Source of the DNA: a virus
Virus record (IMG/VR): IMGVR_UViG_3300022918_000016
Span: 1 to 52,569 of that record
Length of the DNA stretch: 52,569 nt
Direction: 5' to 3' (one strand)
Each line of letters starts with the position of its first letter. The first letter of the stretch is position 1. The notes below the pieces were generated by a model. That model was given only the letters and a program-made list of their open reading frames with translations, ran no database searches and was not told the DNA's origin. The position numbers were made by a program, and so were the translations under genes. Below are positions 7,970 through 52,569 of the stretch, one piece after another.

Positions 7970-8215
7970 TTAAAAAGGTAAATGTGTAATTTTGTCTTTC
8001 GTAATCTCTTGTAACGAATTATATAAATCCTCTTTTGTGTTAAAAACACCTGTATCATTTATAGTTGCTACAGACCCTCCGTTAACAACGAATTCATAAG
8101 TGGTTCTTGAATAAGTTTCTGTTTGCTCAAATTTTACTTTATTTATAGGCAGGAAATAAAGTTCATTATTGTGCAGAAAAAACACAGTGTCTTTTGGTTT
8201 TCTTAAATTTTGCAT
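7970..8215 (-). CDS. Hypothetical protein, 81 aa; first gene of the left operon
   Basis: Strand-rich small protein (DTVFFLHNNELYFLPINKV) with no motif I recognise. It starts about 24 bases after the -7 box at 8239-8246 and leads the minus-strand DNA-metabolism operon. Confidence 0.7.
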   Translation of the reverse strand: MQNLRKPKDTVFFLHNNELYFLPINKVKFEQTETYSRTTYEFVVNGGSVATINDTGVFNTKEDLYNSLQEITKDKITHLPF

Positions 8216-8238
8216 TTTTATAAATTATTTTGATACCG

Positions 8239-8246
8239 CAAATATA
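8239..8246 (-). promoter_or_regulatory. Promoter -7 box, left DNA-metabolism operon
   Basis: On the minus strand this reads TATATTTG, matching the Bacteroidetes -7 consensus TAnnTTTG. No TTTG lies at the ideal distance upstream; the region above it is a long A/T tract. It is placed to drive 8215 and the genes beyond, down to the primase. Confidence 0.6.
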
Positions 8247-8294
8247 ATACATTAATTTTAATGAAAAATATTTTTTTATTCAAAATGTTAGTTG

Positions 8295-8302
8295 TAGGTT
8301 TG
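8295..8302 (+). promoter_or_regulatory. Promoter -7 box, rightward early operon
   Basis: TAGGTTTG matches TAnnTTTG exactly and sits 20 bases before the ATG at 8323. With the box at 8239 it makes a divergent pair in the roughly 107-base gap between the two early operons. Confidence 0.6.
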
Positions 8303-8322
8303 CTGAACTAAAAATAGAAATT

Positions 8323-8538
8323 ATGACACCAACCGAAAAATTAATAATACTTAAAGAGTATGAGAACTTAGGCTTAGATACTGAGTTTGTAGAATCTATA
8401 ATGGATGACAGGGGTTTTATACCTGAACACGAATGGGAAGAATTTAATCCTTATTTGCATGAGTGGGATATGGAATGTTCTTTCGGTGTTACTAAATTCA
8501 GGCCAGTAAACATTTATCCGAAACTTAAATCTTTGTAA
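8323..8538 (+). CDS. Small acidic hypothetical protein, 71 aa
   Basis: Highly acidic and aromatic (FIPEHEWEEFNPYLHEWDME). It is the first gene of the rightward early operon, the usual place for host-takeover or DNA-mimic proteins, but nothing in the sequence proves such a role. Its first 17 coding bases nearly match those of the next gene. Confidence 0.65.
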   Translation: MTPTEKLIILKEYENLGLDTEFVESIMDDRGFIPEHEWEEFNPYLHEWDMECSFGVTKFRPVNIYPKLKSL

Positions 8539-13407: not shown

Positions 13408-13932
13408 TTATATATTCGGATAAATAAACCCGTTTTCATTTATATATTTACCGGAATTTACCGTGTTCTGCAGTCCCTGCCAATTGTAACCGAAGGTTTT
13501 TTCAAAGTGCGGCATATCAGGAAACGATCGCCAGTCTCCGCCCCATACCCAACCAATGGACTTAAAATATTTTACTACTTCCATCCAATCGGCTATCCCG
13601 TCTTTGTCATTATCAGCCACAACACTCCATGATGCGGTTTCGAAAATCCCGTCGTTATTTTTATCTAAAAGCAACACAATGTCAAAAGCCAGCCCGTAAT
13701 TATGTATGGATTGTCCGGCTTTAGCATTCGTAACCTTATTACCTGGTTTAGTCCTTCCCTGAGCGTATAAGGCTGCTTGCTCTGTTAAACTCCTGTAGGT
13801 GTACGCAAAACGTAATCTAACGCCTTTTCCAAGTAGTTTATCGTTTACGTGCCTGTAAGCCTGTAAAACCTCATTGCGTACTTTAGGATGCATCTGCTGT
13901 ATTCGGTATATGGTTATTAAATCGTCTGCCAT
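13408..13932 (-). CDS. Endolysin, M15-family L,D- or D,D-peptidase with calcium-loop motifs
   Basis: 174 residues. YRS at 46-48, the zinc motif SIHNYGLAFD with His77 and Asp84, and PDMPHFE with His142 define the M15 (VanY/L-alanyl-D-glutamate peptidase) fold, which cuts the peptide part of peptidoglycan. Between Asp84 and His142 are two DxNxDG-type loops, DKNNDG at 90-95 and DNDKDG at 107-112, like EF-hand calcium sites; calcium control is known for the related phage T5 endolysin. There is no signal peptide, so a holin is needed; candidates are the membrane proteins just upstream. Confidence 0.9.
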   Translation of the reverse strand: MADDLITIYRIQQMHPKVRNEVLQAYRHVNDKLLGKGVRLRFAYTYRSLTEQAALYAQGRTKPGNKVTNAKAGQSIHNYGLAFDIVLLLDKNNDGIFETASWSVVADNDKDGIADWMEVVKYFKSIGWVWGGDWRSFPDMPHFEKTFGYNWQGLQNTVNSGKYINENGFIYPNI

Positions 13933-15391: not shown

Positions 15392-15549
15392 AAAAATATT
15401 TTTAAAAATTGATAAAATGCGTAAATCATAAATGCTGCCCAAAACAGGACGGCTATTTTATAGGTTTTTCTGGAAAACCCCATTTCCCGGGTAATCTCGC
15501 TGAATATGTTTTGACGTTTTAATGCTGTCAGTTTGTTTTTTAAGGTCAT
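15376..15549 (-). CDS. Small membrane protein, 57 aa, overlapping its neighbour
   Basis: MTLKNKLTALKRQ leads to a basic helix and one strong membrane segment (IAVLFWAAFMIYAFYQF at about 32-48). The start at 15549 is favoured over 15579. It overlaps the upstream small membrane gene by 92 bases in another frame; both frames look protein-like. It may be a lysis accessory. Confidence 0.5.
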   Translation of the reverse strand: MTLKNKLTALKRQNIFSEITREMGFSRKTYKIAVLFWAAFMIYAFYQFLKIFLCLTQ

Positions 15550-15655
15550 CAGTGTTTTTGTTAATCTTGCCTGCATCACAACACCCGAAGTTTATTACTA
15601 TAACCACAACGATTACAACGGCAACCCCTGTTAAACGGCTTAGAAATTCTTTCAT
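15458..15655 (-). CDS. Small N-terminally anchored protein, 65 aa
   Basis: After MKEFLSRLTG comes a very hydrophobic VAVVIVVVIVINFGCC segment, then a polar, helix-forming tail (INKNTDDLKKQTDSIK). NFGC resembles but does not meet the lipobox rule. The topology recalls an inner-membrane spanin, and the overlapping gene recalls Rz/Rz1 nesting, but neither match is firm. Starts by ATGA overlap. Confidence 0.55.
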   Translation of the reverse strand: MKEFLSRLTGVAVVIVVVIVINFGCCDAGKINKNTDDLKKQTDSIKTSKHIQRDYPGNGVFQKNL

Positions 15656-42316: not shown

Positions 42317-43816
42317 CTAACTTATTTCAAACATCTGCCTATGATTCACATACATATATCGAATAAATTCAGTAACCGCATCTTCTATATCGTCGTGACC
42401 GTCCTCTGCCTTACCAATTTTAGGGTATGCCTGTAAATGTTTAACGGCCTGATTGTGCTGAGGCTGCGTTACAGGGTTAGCTCTCACAATATAAATCTTA
42501 CTCATAAACTGCGCAAACGAGGTTATGCGGTGATCTTTATTACCCGATGAATAATAGCCCTCTACATGCACACCCATGTTCTGCAGCAACGTAACATACA
42601 CGCTGCCCTGGTTGTTCGTTTCCATCTTGTTTATGATACTGCCATGCTCCTGTATTTTTTGCTTCAACAGCGGCGATGTAACCGCGCTGCCCTCCTGCGT
42701 GTAAATAGTATCGAACCAATACATTTTCCCGGCATTGACCTCAAAGAACGGCGTGGCAAAATAATCAGAACCGGTGTCGGCTACATCGGTAAAACTTAAA
42801 CGTATTTCGTCGCCCCGGCGCGGCGGTAATGCATCGACGAAATTTAATTCCGGATACAGTAACCCGTCAACCGATTGTGCTATCTGATTGTACTGGATGT
42901 TATATGCTACATCGGAAATCGGTTTATTATCATCCAACAACCCGGCGCGCTGGTCAGACAATACCTTACGGGATAAACGTTTCGGATCAAGCAGTCCATC
43001 GATATAAAATGCCCGTAATTCAGGAGGGTTAATATTCTGGTAAATATCCTCAGCAGGTAAACACAAATGCCTTACATCATCTTTAAGTACCTTAAGCGCA
43101 TGGCCTGCGGTGTCTTTATTTGACAAACGTTGCATGAATAAGATATACGGCGTTTTACGTTTATCTTTTTTACGGGATTGCAAGGCTTTGAACCCCTCGA
43201 TGCATTCTGCGGCTTCTGCAGGGCTTTGAGCCGTTGAGTAGTCCATTGCATCATCATCGGTAATTAAATCAACGTGCTTACCTGTTTTTGATTTAGAGTT
43301 TGTAGTTACGGAATATCGTATGCCGCCTTTTTCGGATTCGTAGTATGTTTTAGCCGACACGTCCCGGCGAACGCGTACAGTCGGGAAGTAAAGCCTGTAC
43401 TTATCAGATTTTATAATATCAAGCGAATCCTTAGCAAACCCGCTGGCATTTGATGCCGATATGGTGTTACTCATAATAGATTTAGAATCATCGATGCACC
43501 ATACCCACGCCGGTACTGCCCGAGATAGTATCGTTGACTTAGTTGTACCTGGCGGCATGTTGCCTACAAGGTTTTTTTTAATATCATCTAAAATAGTTGG
43601 ATACCATTTTCCTGCCTGTATATGTGGCGGTCTTTCAAAAACATACTTGTCAATTACTAACTGTATCTCATCGCAGAAGTATTCGATATTAAAATTGTCC
43701 TCATAAGGATTATTTATTATAACATCCCAAAATTCTTTTAAAAAGTAAAAAAGCCGTCGCTTACATAGCTCGGCTTTTACTTCATGTATTTTTGGTAGTA
43801 AAATCTGTTTAGTCAT
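42317..43816 (-). CDS. Terminase large subunit
   Basis: 499 residues. The ATPase half has a Walker A-like PPGTTKST at 88-95, preceded by NLVGNM, and a Walker B-like HVDLITDDDAMD near 185. The nuclease half has LSFTDVADTGSDYF near 340 with a metal-binding Asp, a further acidic site, and DGHDDIEDAVTEF near 480. It drives DNA into the prohead and cuts it. It overlaps the small subunit gene by 8 bases. Confidence 0.9.
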   Translation of the reverse strand: MTKQILLPKIHEVKAELCKRRLFYFLKEFWDVIINNPYEDNFNIEYFCDEIQLVIDKYVFERPPHIQAGKWYPTILDDIKKNLVGNMPPGTTKSTILSRAVPAWVWCIDDSKSIMSNTISASNASGFAKDSLDIIKSDKYRLYFPTVRVRRDVSAKTYYESEKGGIRYSVTTNSKSKTGKHVDLITDDDAMDYSTAQSPAEAAECIEGFKALQSRKKDKRKTPYILFMQRLSNKDTAGHALKVLKDDVRHLCLPAEDIYQNINPPELRAFYIDGLLDPKRLSRKVLSDQRAGLLDDNKPISDVAYNIQYNQIAQSVDGLLYPELNFVDALPPRRGDEIRLSFTDVADTGSDYFATPFFEVNAGKMYWFDTIYTQEGSAVTSPLLKQKIQEHGSIINKMETNNQGSVYVTLLQNMGVHVEGYYSSGNKDHRITSFAQFMSKIYIVRANPVTQPQHNQAVKHLQAYPKIGKAEDGHDDIEDAVTEFIRYMYVNHRQMFEIS

Positions 43817-44365: not shown

Positions 44366-44695
44366 TTAAAAATTATCACACCCCACAAAATATCCGACTG
44401 ATTTACTCGGCTGTAGTGGCTGTTTGGTTTCGCAGTCAATCGGCATCCCGGAAACTAAGTAACTCCCGGATTCCGTTCTGTATTCTGCGGTACAATGGCA
44501 ATCTGGTTTATCGCTGGAGCAGGATGTTAGCCCCAGAATAAAAATAGCGATAACGCCGGTAATTTTAAGTTTTTGCCTCATCAGCTCAGATAGCGAAATT
44601 TTTTTATCTGCCGCTTCCTGTTCAAGCTGTTTTTTACTTTCAGGGGTTACCTGAACGTTGATGAATGGTTTTTTCTGTTTAGCTTCGGTCTGCAT
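44366..44695 (-). CDS. Ribbon-helix-helix domain joined in frame to a lipoprotein
   Basis: From the ATG at 44695: residues 11-40 read INVQVTPESKKQLEQEAADK, a ribbon-helix-helix DNA-binding domain, then straight into MRQKLKITGVIAIFILGL and a lipobox LTSC, followed by a Cys-rich domain (DCHCTAEYRTESGSY, GMPIDCETKQ). An ATG at 44581 (MRQKLK) gives an ordinary 71-residue lipoprotein by itself. Either one protein is made with an internal membrane segment, or two products arise from nested starts. A second gene of this type is at 47721. Confidence 0.75.
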   Translation of the reverse strand: MQTEAKQKKPFINVQVTPESKKQLEQEAADKKISLSELMRQKLKITGVIAIFILGLTSCSSDKPDCHCTAEYRTESGSYLVSGMPIDCETKQPLQPSKSVGYFVGCDNF

Positions 44696-44716: not shown

Positions 44717-44724
44717 CAAATATA
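44717..44724 (-). promoter_or_regulatory. Promoter -7 box of the terminase operon
   Basis: Minus-strand TATATTTG, with TTTG 17 bases upstream and 22 bases before the ATG at 44695. It heads the packaging and head operon. Confidence 0.6.
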
Positions 44725-45030
44725 AAACAATCTTTCACAATCAAACAAGAAAAATCGTAAAAAAAAATTTGTTGCATTTTTTCGCTGAAAAACAAAGAGA
44801 CATAGAAACAAATAAATATCTATTATATTAAATATATATTTAATTTAATATAAATTATTATTATTATAGGGCTCTTTATCTTTGGGATTTTTTACACACA
44901 TATTTTACACTTTCATTGATTATCAGTTACTTATATTTTTACTATGTTTTTTAATATTTATGTTAAATATAGTTTGTTTAATTTAAAATTAAAAATTACC
45001 TTTGAATCGTTAATATTAAATTAAAATATA
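44725..45030. other. AT-rich divergent control region
   Basis: A 306-base gap between the terminase operon (minus) and island 3 (plus). It is very rich in A and T with dense TATATTTAAT-type stretches near 44820-44870, which would melt easily. Apart from the two promoters I see no gene, tandem repeat array or tRNA. It could serve as an origin or as a late control region; both ideas are inference. Confidence 0.4.
44973..45004 (+). promoter_or_regulatory. Full Bacteroidetes promoter of island 3
   Basis: TTTG at 44973-44976, then 20 bases, then TACCTTTG at 44997-45004. This is the best full match in the window to the -33 and -7 consensus, 26 bases before the ATG at 45031. Confidence 0.75.
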
Positions 45031-45921
45031 ATGAAAGATTTTAAACTTGTTACTAAAAAAAACTACGTAAATGTATTTGCAGAAATTAAAAACCCGTACA
45101 TAATCGTTAAGTTTGATGTTGAAAAAACACGCGAAAAATTTAATTTTCTTATTAATTTAGGAAATAAGTTTTTTGTTGAAACACGATTTAAGGAAAAACC
45201 ATACTTTGAAACTGTCAGAAATGATGATGATGAAGTAGTGGAAAATGAAATTGAGGGGTATTATTTTATCTATTGCACTGATAAAAATTCAAATATTGAG
45301 TTTTTAGATGACGAAATCAATCTACAGGAGATCATTAAAAAAGCCTCAGAAACGCAAAAATCGATAGAAATAAACATCCGAAAAGAGCTATTTAAGTATG
45401 CTAAAACGCTTTGTTTTGAGTCCGGATGTAAATTTAAGGTAGAGCCTGACAGACAAATTATTGATGGTAAAAAGCCTGGTAAAAGTATTTTTAGGCTCAT
45501 GGAGGATGCGTTTAGAGCTGGGGATGCCAGTATATCATTCGATGCGAAAGATGTAAATTTCCCTACCTTAAGAACCTATACAAGCCAGTTAGGCGCACGT
45601 GCAGATAAGAAATTTAAACCCGTTGTTATCGGCGATACTATGACTGTATTTTTTAAAGAACCGGATACTATACAGGTTTTTGAAAATGATTTAAAAGTGT
45701 TACTCCGGGGTTTTGATGACAAAATAAGCGTTCCTGATCTATTCCGGGCGATGGTTAAAACGCGTGTTACCGAACATAACTCTACAGAGGTAGTGAAGAG
45801 CATTTTTAGCGCATTAGAGGGATTATTTGACTATACAGAGGCCGTAATGTTATTTAATGATATGATCCCGCAGCCGACAGAAAAACAGTATGATTTAGAT
45901 GAAAATGAAGAAATAAATTAA
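45031..45921 (+). CDS. Hypothetical protein, 296 aa
   Basis: Alpha/beta protein with an acidic end (QYDLDENEEIN). Strand pairs near the start (VNVFAEIKNPYIIVKFDV), a middle with FRLMEDAFRAGDASISFDAK, and a helical C-terminal third (SVPDLFRAMVKTRVTEHN). No domain recognised. Behind the strongest promoter in the window, it is probably made in quantity; a role in early host takeover or DNA binding is a guess. Confidence 0.7.
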   Translation: MKDFKLVTKKNYVNVFAEIKNPYIIVKFDVEKTREKFNFLINLGNKFFVETRFKEKPYFETVRNDDDEVVENEIEGYYFIYCTDKNSNIEFLDDEINLQEIIKKASETQKSIEINIRKELFKYAKTLCFESGCKFKVEPDRQIIDGKKPGKSIFRLMEDAFRAGDASISFDAKDVNFPTLRTYTSQLGARADKKFKPVVIGDTMTVFFKEPDTIQVFENDLKVLLRGFDDKISVPDLFRAMVKTRVTEHNSTEVVKSIFSALEGLFDYTEAVMLFNDMIPQPTEKQYDLDENEEIN

Positions 45922-47720: not shown

Positions 47721-48266
47721 TTAGTTTTTAATTAATAATCCCGATACAAACCCAATGATACCCCATAAAATAGGGTGTTTAAACCATTTTACCGGCTTAC
47801 TGGCTTCAATTTTTACCGATTCAACCGTTAGATCCTCGTGTGCCTGGTTTAATTCTAAATTAAGAACCGTAAGCCGGGAATAAATAACCTGAAGGCTATC
47901 ATTCTGTTTCTGTATAATGATATTTAACTCCTGTGCTGCATTGTACGCCTGCTGATATTGTAACCGGTACTCATTGCTTGTTTTAAGTCCTTTGTAGATG
48001 TTTTTATACTGCGCTGGTGTTAGACATAGGGTATCCTGAGAATATGCCTGTAAACCGATAAATAATATAATTAAGGGTAATTTTTTAATCACTATTTCTA
48101 AATCATAACCGATGGAGTTGGCTATTTTTTTAAGCGTAGTAAATGCCAAAGGTTTATATCCTGAATTATAACCATACAGGTTACGTTTATCGATATTTGA
48201 TTTCTCGGAGATTACCGGTATTTTTAAACCGGATAGCTGTATTAGTTTTTGGAGTGTTTTTTGCAT
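47721..48266 (-). CDS. XRE-type HTH domain joined in frame to an exported coiled-coil protein
   Basis: 181 residues. Residues 1-62 are an XRE/Cro-like helix-turn-helix (QKLIQLSGLKIPVISEKSN, then LKKIANSIGYDLEIVIKK). Directly after comes LPLIILFIGLQAYSQ, a good Bacteroidetes signal peptide end; then TLCLTPAQYKNIYKGLK, a coiled coil (about 90-150) and a C-terminal membrane segment HPILWGIIGFVSGLL. A GTG at 48092 (V59) would start a normal exported protein of 123 residues, beginning I-K-K-L-P after the initiator. Same plan as 44366-44695: DNA-binding part plus envelope part. The coiled coil with a C-terminal anchor resembles spanin-like proteins. Confidence 0.75.
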   Translation of the reverse strand: MQKTLQKLIQLSGLKIPVISEKSNIDKRNLYGYNSGYKPLAFTTLKKIANSIGYDLEIVIKKLPLIILFIGLQAYSQDTLCLTPAQYKNIYKGLKTSNEYRLQYQQAYNAAQELNIIIQKQNDSLQVIYSRLTVLNLELNQAHEDLTVESVKIEASKPVKWFKHPILWGIIGFVSGLLIKN

Positions 48267-49070: not shown

Positions 49071-49092
49071 AATTCCTATTGTTTTATACATA

Positions 49093-49126
49093 CAAATATA
49101 CACCATTATATAATACCCACAACAAA
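49093..49126 (-). promoter_or_regulatory. Promoter of the right small-gene operon
   Basis: Minus-strand TTTG at 49126-49123, 22 bases, then TATATTTG at 49100-49093, about 22 bases before the ATG at 49070. A terminator for the preceding gene lies just before it, so transcription restarts here. Confidence 0.65.
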
Positions 49127-49172: not shown

Positions 49173-49487
49173 TTATTCTGATTTATAATTACGTAAATAC
49201 TGCTTCATATACTCATTTGTTGTATCCCTGATAACAGGTTTTTCTACACGTAATTTTTTAATTATTTCTTTTGATTTTTCTACTGAATTTTTAGAAACAT
49301 CTGAAGCTGATTTTATTTCTCCTGTAATAGAATCGTTTTTAGTTTTAATCGTTTTCTGTAGCTGCTCCGTTTTATTAGATACAGGCAGATGTTCACGAAG
49401 TGGCGCGGTTAAAAACCACACAGCTAAACCTGCTATTATTGCGGCTGCCAATACTGCCCATCCCGGGTATTTAGTTTCTTGTTCCAT
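49173..49487 (-). CDS. Membrane-anchored coiled-coil protein, 104 aa
   Basis: One N-terminal membrane segment (WAVLAAAIIAGLAVWFL at about 10-26) followed by a long charged helical region (KTEQLQKTIKTKNDSITGEI) in the periplasm. That is the plan of an inner-membrane spanin; the lipoprotein at 52098 could be its outer-membrane partner. The pairing is inference, and the lysis block lies far away at 13-16 kb. Confidence 0.6.
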   Translation of the reverse strand: MEQETKYPGWAVLAAAIIAGLAVWFLTAPLREHLPVSNKTEQLQKTIKTKNDSITGEIKSASDVSKNSVEKSKEIIKKLRVEKPVIRDTTNEYMKQYLRNYKSE

Positions 49488-52304: not shown

Positions 52305-52339
52305 AATAGGTATTTTTAAATGCTGTTTTTTTATACATA

Positions 52340-52369
52340 CAAATATACACCTATTTTTCAATTCACAAA
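52340..52369 (-). promoter_or_regulatory. Promoter before the lipoprotein gene
   Basis: Minus-strand TTTG at 52369-52366, 18 bases, then TATATTTG at 52347-52340. It lies just beyond the primase-helicase stop and drives the genes 52304 to 49173. Confidence 0.65.
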
Positions 52370-52384
52370 CATTTTTCACAAAAA

Positions 52385-52569
52385 TTATTTAAATTTTATT
52401 TCTGTCTGTTCTTCGTTATTTCGTATCACTTCAAACGGCTTACCTTCCGTGGCAGGCGAAGCCCCGAATATAATCTCACTATTAACCTTTGTAGCGCGTG
52501 ATTTCGTCTTAGAACCGAACACTATACCATCTACCTTAACTGCGCCCTCTAAACGCATTAAAAACACTG
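52385..52569 (-). CDS. Primase-helicase, C-terminal end (continues the 1..2711 gene)
   Basis: This is the terminal part of the primase-helicase on the right end of the linear window; the stop is at 52385. Across the circular join the 18 residues after residue 903 complete a 921-residue protein, ending in a charged tail (RNNEEQTEIKFK). The repeat copy of codon 862 is GTG (Val) here and GGG (Gly) at the left end, so one of the two is likely an error. Confidence 0.9.
   Translation of the reverse strand, partial: VFLMRLEGAVKVDGIVFGSKTKSRATKVNSEIIFGASPATEGKPFEVIRNNEEQTEIKFK
52440..52569. repeat. Terminal direct repeat, right copy
   Basis: Matches 1-130 at 129 of 130 positions. See the left copy for the circular-closure argument. 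Confidence 0.95.

Follow-up and report, generated by a model that had tools for sequence, protein, structure and literature searches.

The question raised by this locus is why a phage gene should carry a helix-turn-helix (HTH) domain directly in front of a segment resembling a signal peptide, and whether such a gene gives one product or two. We considered it within the whole stretch of DNA analysed (the window), i.e. the 52,569 bases of IMGVR_UViG_3300022918_000016. Its first and last 130 bases (1-130 and 52440-52569) form a direct repeat with one mismatch, and the window is therefore probably a circularly assembled, complete genome. The large terminase is nearest to those of Cellulophaga phages and the promoters and signal peptides are Bacteroidota-like, so that a host among the Bacteroidota is very likely. 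A terminase-based search retrieved a sister contig, IMGVR_UViG_3300022924_000002 (L003), with a terminase 96% identical to that of the window. It carries both of the fusions discussed below, the HTH-signal one (215 aa) and one joining a ribbon-helix-helix (RHH) domain to a lipoprotein (Table 1).

Table 1. Features of the window discussed in the text (a slash marks a predicted cleavage site).
Feature	Coordinates	Strand	Remarks
HTH, signal peptide, coiled-coil-like segment and C-terminal hydrophobic segment (HTH fusion)	47721..48266	minus	181 aa, ATG start
Cro/C1-type HTH domain, residues 1-62	48081..48266	minus	weak in window copy; sister copy and alignment
Internal signal-peptide-like segment, residues 59-77, V-IKKLPLIILFIGLQAYSQ/D	48036..48092	minus	hydropathy, sister comparison
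Codon 59 GTG, candidate internal start	48090..48092	minus	ATA in sister
Long helical or coiled-coil-like segment, residues about 85-158	47793..48014	minus	heptad test
C-terminal hydrophobic segment, residues 165-178	47733..47774	minus	hydropathy
46-aa ORF, one hydrophobic segment	48272..48412	minus	directly upstream of HTH fusion gene
104-aa protein, N-terminal hydrophobic, then charged segment	49173..49487	minus	sister copy directly upstream of fusion in L003
RHH domain, lipoprotein signal (GLTSC) and short Cys-rich lipoprotein (RHH fusion)	44366..44695	minus	likely start ATG 44695
Bacteroidota-type two-box promoter	44717..44745	minus	just upstream of RHH-lipoprotein gene, conserved in sister
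Large terminase	42317-43816	minus	closest isolate terminases: Cellulophaga phages, ~35% identity
Endolysin	13408-13932		far from HTH fusion gene

The protein encoded by the HTH fusion gene reads MQKTL...DLEIVIKKLPLIILFIGLQAYSQDT...GIIGFVSGLLIKN. An earlier note on this DNA had described its layout while leaving the strand unstated, and the open reading frame, the signal-like stretch, the heptad segment and the C-terminal hydrophobic part were all recovered here; the HTH score of the window copy, in turn, proved weak. This copy matches the Pfam family HTH_26 (PF13443) with E=0.042 and 14.5 bits against a curated cut-off of 22, while its sister attains 24.4 bits against the same cut-off, and the two copies align at 63% over residues 1-62. 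The end of the domain, DLEIVIKK, passes without a gap into LPLIILFIGLQAYSQD. The signal-like stretch (residues 59-77) reads LPLIILFIGLQAYSQ/D and has a hydrophobic core of about 13 residues (58-70). A simple rule-based scan found in it the features expected by signal peptidase I, namely a basic n-region, a short h-region and a cleavage motif (IKK-LPLIILFIGLQA-YSQ/D); the sister counterpart is IKK-LPVLIIFISLHA-FSQ/D, with SQ/D kept. In layout and length the stretch is like N-terminal signal peptides of the sister phage, e.g. MKFKILIIMLFISLGLQAQ/D and MKKIALLLILITTSLSAQ/S, yet it is neither N-terminal, being preceded by 58 residues, nor provided with a conserved start of its own.

The middle segment shows heptad periodicity (shuffle p=0.0008 in the window, 0.0002 in the sister); AlphaFold2, run on the two-sequence alignment, returned a helix, but with a mean pLDDT of 37, too low for use. 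Lysines (KPVKWFKH) precede the C-terminal hydrophobic segment, whose hydrophobic stretch covers residues 166-178. As to the neighbourhood, the 46-aa ORF is missing from this position in the sister, where a homolog of the 49173-49487 protein precedes the fusion. This protein is a possible partner because of that position, and the two may form a pair.

The earlier note placed the second fusion far off in the genome, but the two share a strand and are only about 3 kb apart. Its N-terminal part matches RHH_1 (PF01402) with E=0.0013 and 19.1 bits, below the curated cut-off of 20.5, and a NikA-like RHH family with E=1.7e-4 and 22.1 bits, short of the cut-off of 27. Orthologs were found in the sister (L003:7932-8255) and in a further contig (L002); the window and sister copies are 50% identical and both keep the GLTSC lipobox. 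The start, judged by its sequence context, is most likely ATG 44695, and the conserved promoter stands in front of it. This promoter fits the Bacteroidota pattern TTTG-N17-TANNTTTG, a loose one that occurs 7 times in the window where chance alone would give 3.1. It is also the single one of three boxes proposed earlier that conforms to the pattern; those at 8239 and 8295 do not at spacings of 15-23. Elsewhere, the promoter-like sites at 49081-49126 and 52328-52369 (minus strand) both contain the extended core TGTATATTTGTATGTATAAAA, nearly the same as the core of one site in the sister (L056, 10216-10257). A 21-base inverted repeat (86%) at 44973-45025 covers a promoter-like site before the divergent gene 45031-45921 and is a possible operator.

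Are these joins real? The ortholog of the HTH fusion in the sister, L003:3880-4527(+), is 71% identical over the aligned residues and has the same in-frame join; it differs by one in-frame insertion of 34 codons just after the signal. The length differences between the two RHH fusions are likewise multiples of three. For the whole HTH fusion dN is 0.19 and dS 0.78 (dN/dS ~0.25), for its HTH core 0.41 and 1.05 (~0.4), and for the exported coil 0.11 and 0.81; in the second fusion the RHH domain gives 0.34 and 1.25 and the mature lipoprotein 0.19 and 1.34. By these values, purifying selection is acting on the HTH core, the exported coil and the HTH fusion as a whole, as well as on both parts of the RHH fusion. 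A sequencing or assembly error, the first of which the earlier note had named as a way in which its idea could fall, and a chance open frame at the join are excluded, because the join is in frame in an independent, diverged contig, the length differences are multiples of three and dN/dS is ~0.25. Comparison of two sequences for the HTH fusion and of three contigs for the RHH fusion thus indicates that both joins are real and selected. The suggestion that an odd design occurring twice, with unrelated DNA-binding folds, is more than chance finds support here, as both fusions are kept in the sister.

A rule-based scan covered the window, 4 isolate Bacteroidota phages and 10 related contigs or parts of contigs (several were fragments, and one was a region of a bacterial contig whose terminase is related). 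It looked for signal peptides placed internally, in the sense frame, after a leading domain of 36 aa or more. Only the two fusion genes and their counterparts in the sister showed this design; three further matches were judged, by non-exhaustive checks, to be antisense ORFs. Whole-protein searches of phages, plasmids, viral contigs and one genome set returned the sister contig only. Searches with the exported part alone in ~400 Flavobacteriaceae genomes and with the whole fusion in ~395 Bacteroidota genomes met only look-alikes, of the HTH or of the signal peptide, as inspection showed; this negative is weak, as the group was arrived at via a distant terminase match. All these searches reach close relatives only, since the profiles were built from just two sequences. 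A DNA pattern for the QDTLCLT motif gave chance matches only (7 genomes; the reversed pattern, used as a control, hit about as many), a sequence search of the PDB gave chance-level matches only, and in the open-licence literature no paper on a phage fusion of HTH and signal peptide was found.

More distant relatives possess the parts separately. In the cousin phages L010 and L070 there is an HTH domain 44-45% identical to that of the sister, with a different, charged tail and without a signal peptide; in L010 its gene lies upstream of the terminase. Near the site of the RHH fusion L010 further encodes a lipoprotein on its own (8179-8385). The fusions therefore look derived, the direction of change being unproven.

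What is kept in both phages is the full-length frames together with the processing motifs (YSQ/D or FSQ/D in the HTH fusion, GLTSC in the RHH one). Because of this, and because the internal stretch resembles ordinary N-terminal signal peptides, we tentatively favour the reading that each fusion gene gives one protein, which would insert with its N-terminus inside and be split by a signal peptidase. The earlier note had instead suggested that GTG 48092 could start the exported part and that the genes might overlap. Two in-frame products would then be made, the full-length fusion and the exported part. This GTG does have a start-like, A-rich upstream context, at the 99th percentile among the 234 internal start codons scored and at the 34th among true starts, by a matrix derived from 64 ATG starts of our own choice, this ORF's included, and to be taken as a rough guide. 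The local structure is weak (-3.4 kcal/mol, where starts average -2.5 and internal positions -6.2), and the product, VIKKLP..., would begin with a signal peptide of normal length. In the sister, however, an identical 20-nt upstream context is followed by ATA, and no ATG, GTG or TTG occurs between the HTH core and the signal, nor is there a usable start close by; GTG and ATA are both one step off ATG, so that an ancestral ATG is possible. An out-of-frame ATG ~14 nt upstream of the GTG also speaks against initiation there, such a pattern being under-represented near Bacteroidota starts (PMC6847099). Synonymous divergence has its minimum around the junction (pS 0.20, codons 45-64), but the dip is not significant by permutation (p 0.27-0.78) and was rejected as a sign of an overlapping signal. 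The internal ATG of the RHH fusion (44579..44581, minus strand), with which the lipoprotein signal segment begins, has an ordinary context, its score being that of a median internal start codon (51st percentile). ATG 48266 and the ATG of the sister have start-like contexts. Overlapping genes with an internal start are thus weakly supported and the two-product arrangement seems rather improbable; internal initiation is possible in the window phage, yet it is not the conserved feature.

Other readings accept one product and differ in its fate. The protein might stay uncut, as a membrane-tethered HTH protein that either anchors phage DNA or some host protein to the inner membrane or relays a periplasmic signal. 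The succession of HTH, membrane segment and extracytoplasmic segment is known in RodZ (PMC6946637), the phage phi29 membrane protein p16.7 helps to organise membrane-associated DNA replication (PMC11476376), and the coiled-coil-like segment would permit dimerisation. Nevertheless, we regard this as unlikely: the hydrophobic stretch is short, its signal-peptidase-like motif is kept in both phages, and processing at the lipobox kept by the RHH fusion would sever the link. The earlier note had also thought of a signalling device that links envelope and promoter; SQ/D and GLTSC argue for separation of the two parts by cleavage and against a single transducer. It is also doubtful that the exported part alone counts and the HTH is a passenger which does little, brought in by a chance gene fusion through a lost stop codon in the common ancestor of both phages. 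Nonsynonymous divergence is indeed higher in the HTH core (dN 0.41) than in the exported part (0.11), and the signal-less HTH of the cousins means that the join may be recent, but the dN/dS of the core is ~0.4 rather than 1, and the same design with an unrelated fold stands 3 kb off, both being kept. Finally, a separate HTH could arise if the A6 run at the junction caused slippage into the +1 frame; both phages have this run and an early stop in that frame (after IKNYP in the window and after IKNYLY in the sister). Early stops are commonplace in AT-rich DNA and A6 is a short run for slippage, and this origin of a free HTH appears very improbable.

Comparison with known systems gives partial likenesses. 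In its N-terminal 62 residues the HTH fusion is like the small XRE or Cro/C1 phage regulators (Pfam HTH_26 and HTH_3, PF01381), but here an export signal follows the HTH in frame, and the window copy is below the cut-off. In phi29 p16.7 the membrane segment is N-terminal and the DNA-binding part C-terminal, i.e. their order is the reverse of that in the HTH fusion. Like the fusion, RodZ joins a cytoplasmic XRE-type HTH to a membrane segment and, beyond it, an extracytoplasmic part (PMC6946637); it has, however, one full transmembrane segment after a linker, a periplasmic domain and an HTH without DNA binding, whereas in the fusion a stretch of ~13 residues with a cut-like motif comes directly after the HTH and a second hydrophobic segment is present. 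Regulators of the FecR/RseA type, cut by RseP, also have a cytoplasmic regulatory part on a membrane segment that is freed by proteolysis (PMC8144685); in our case the first cut would be that of signal peptidase, and no homology was seen. As for the Bacteroidota phage lipoproteins encoded near an amidase (phi12:1 gp64 and 6H AGN89419.1), they likewise have an exported N-terminus and a C-terminal hydrophobic segment, but differ in possessing a lipobox, in standing beside the amidase and in the lack of an HTH. A spanin or other lysis role was rejected for the HTH fusion: of the marks of a unimolecular spanin (N-terminal lipobox, C-terminal membrane segment, lysis locus) it has no lipobox, and it is distant from the endolysin. 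By layout, the amidase-adjoining lipoproteins of Cellulophaga phage phi12:1 and Flavobacterium phage 6H (L054:38652-39083 and L062:29452-30006) are unannotated spanin-like proteins, and the window itself has an o-spanin-like ORF of 65 aa at 15458-15655 (minus strand), lipoprotein-like (INFGC) and situated in the lysis-gene stretch.

Under the favoured reading of a single protein split at the membrane, translation of one mRNA frame from ATG 48266, as conservation suggests, would give a chain whose HTH folds in the cytoplasm and which is inserted, N-terminus inside, by an internal Sec signal at residues 59-77. Signal peptidase I would cut after AYSQ, provided that signal peptidases here cut signals preceded by a folded domain, which is an assumption of the scheme. 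One product would be an exported coiled-coil protein anchored by its C-terminal hydrophobic segment; the other would be an HTH fragment of ~77 aa on the cytoplasmic side with a short membrane tail, most likely acting as a small regulator, whose target may be its own operon. It might, speculatively, act either at the membrane or once an intramembrane protease has removed the tail. For release of a tailed fragment there is a precedent, since in Escherichia coli RseP clears the membrane of signal peptides and also processes FecR, a membrane regulator (PMC8144685). The RHH-lipoprotein would take the same route through lipoprotein signal peptidase, and the DNA-binding peptide and the exported protein of each gene would thereby be made in constant proportion. 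The topology is uncertain, because with a periplasmic coil the KPVKWFKH lysines would contradict the positive-inside rule. Resting on two genomes, the case as a whole is interesting, but not established.

Signal peptides are usually seen as discarded address labels. A bolder and rather unlikely extension of the above is that the DNA-binding domains serve as oversized signal peptides which, once cut, become cytoplasmic regulators, tying gene control to the amount of exported protein delivered; that HTH and RHH, unrelated folds, are used alike in one genome belongs to the same extension and is equally doubtful. For annotation such genes are a hazard, as the start codon may be moved to the signal peptide or the HTH alone may be called. 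If two unrelated DNA-binding folds have indeed been joined to export signals and kept, cut-off signal peptides may be working bacterial regulators.
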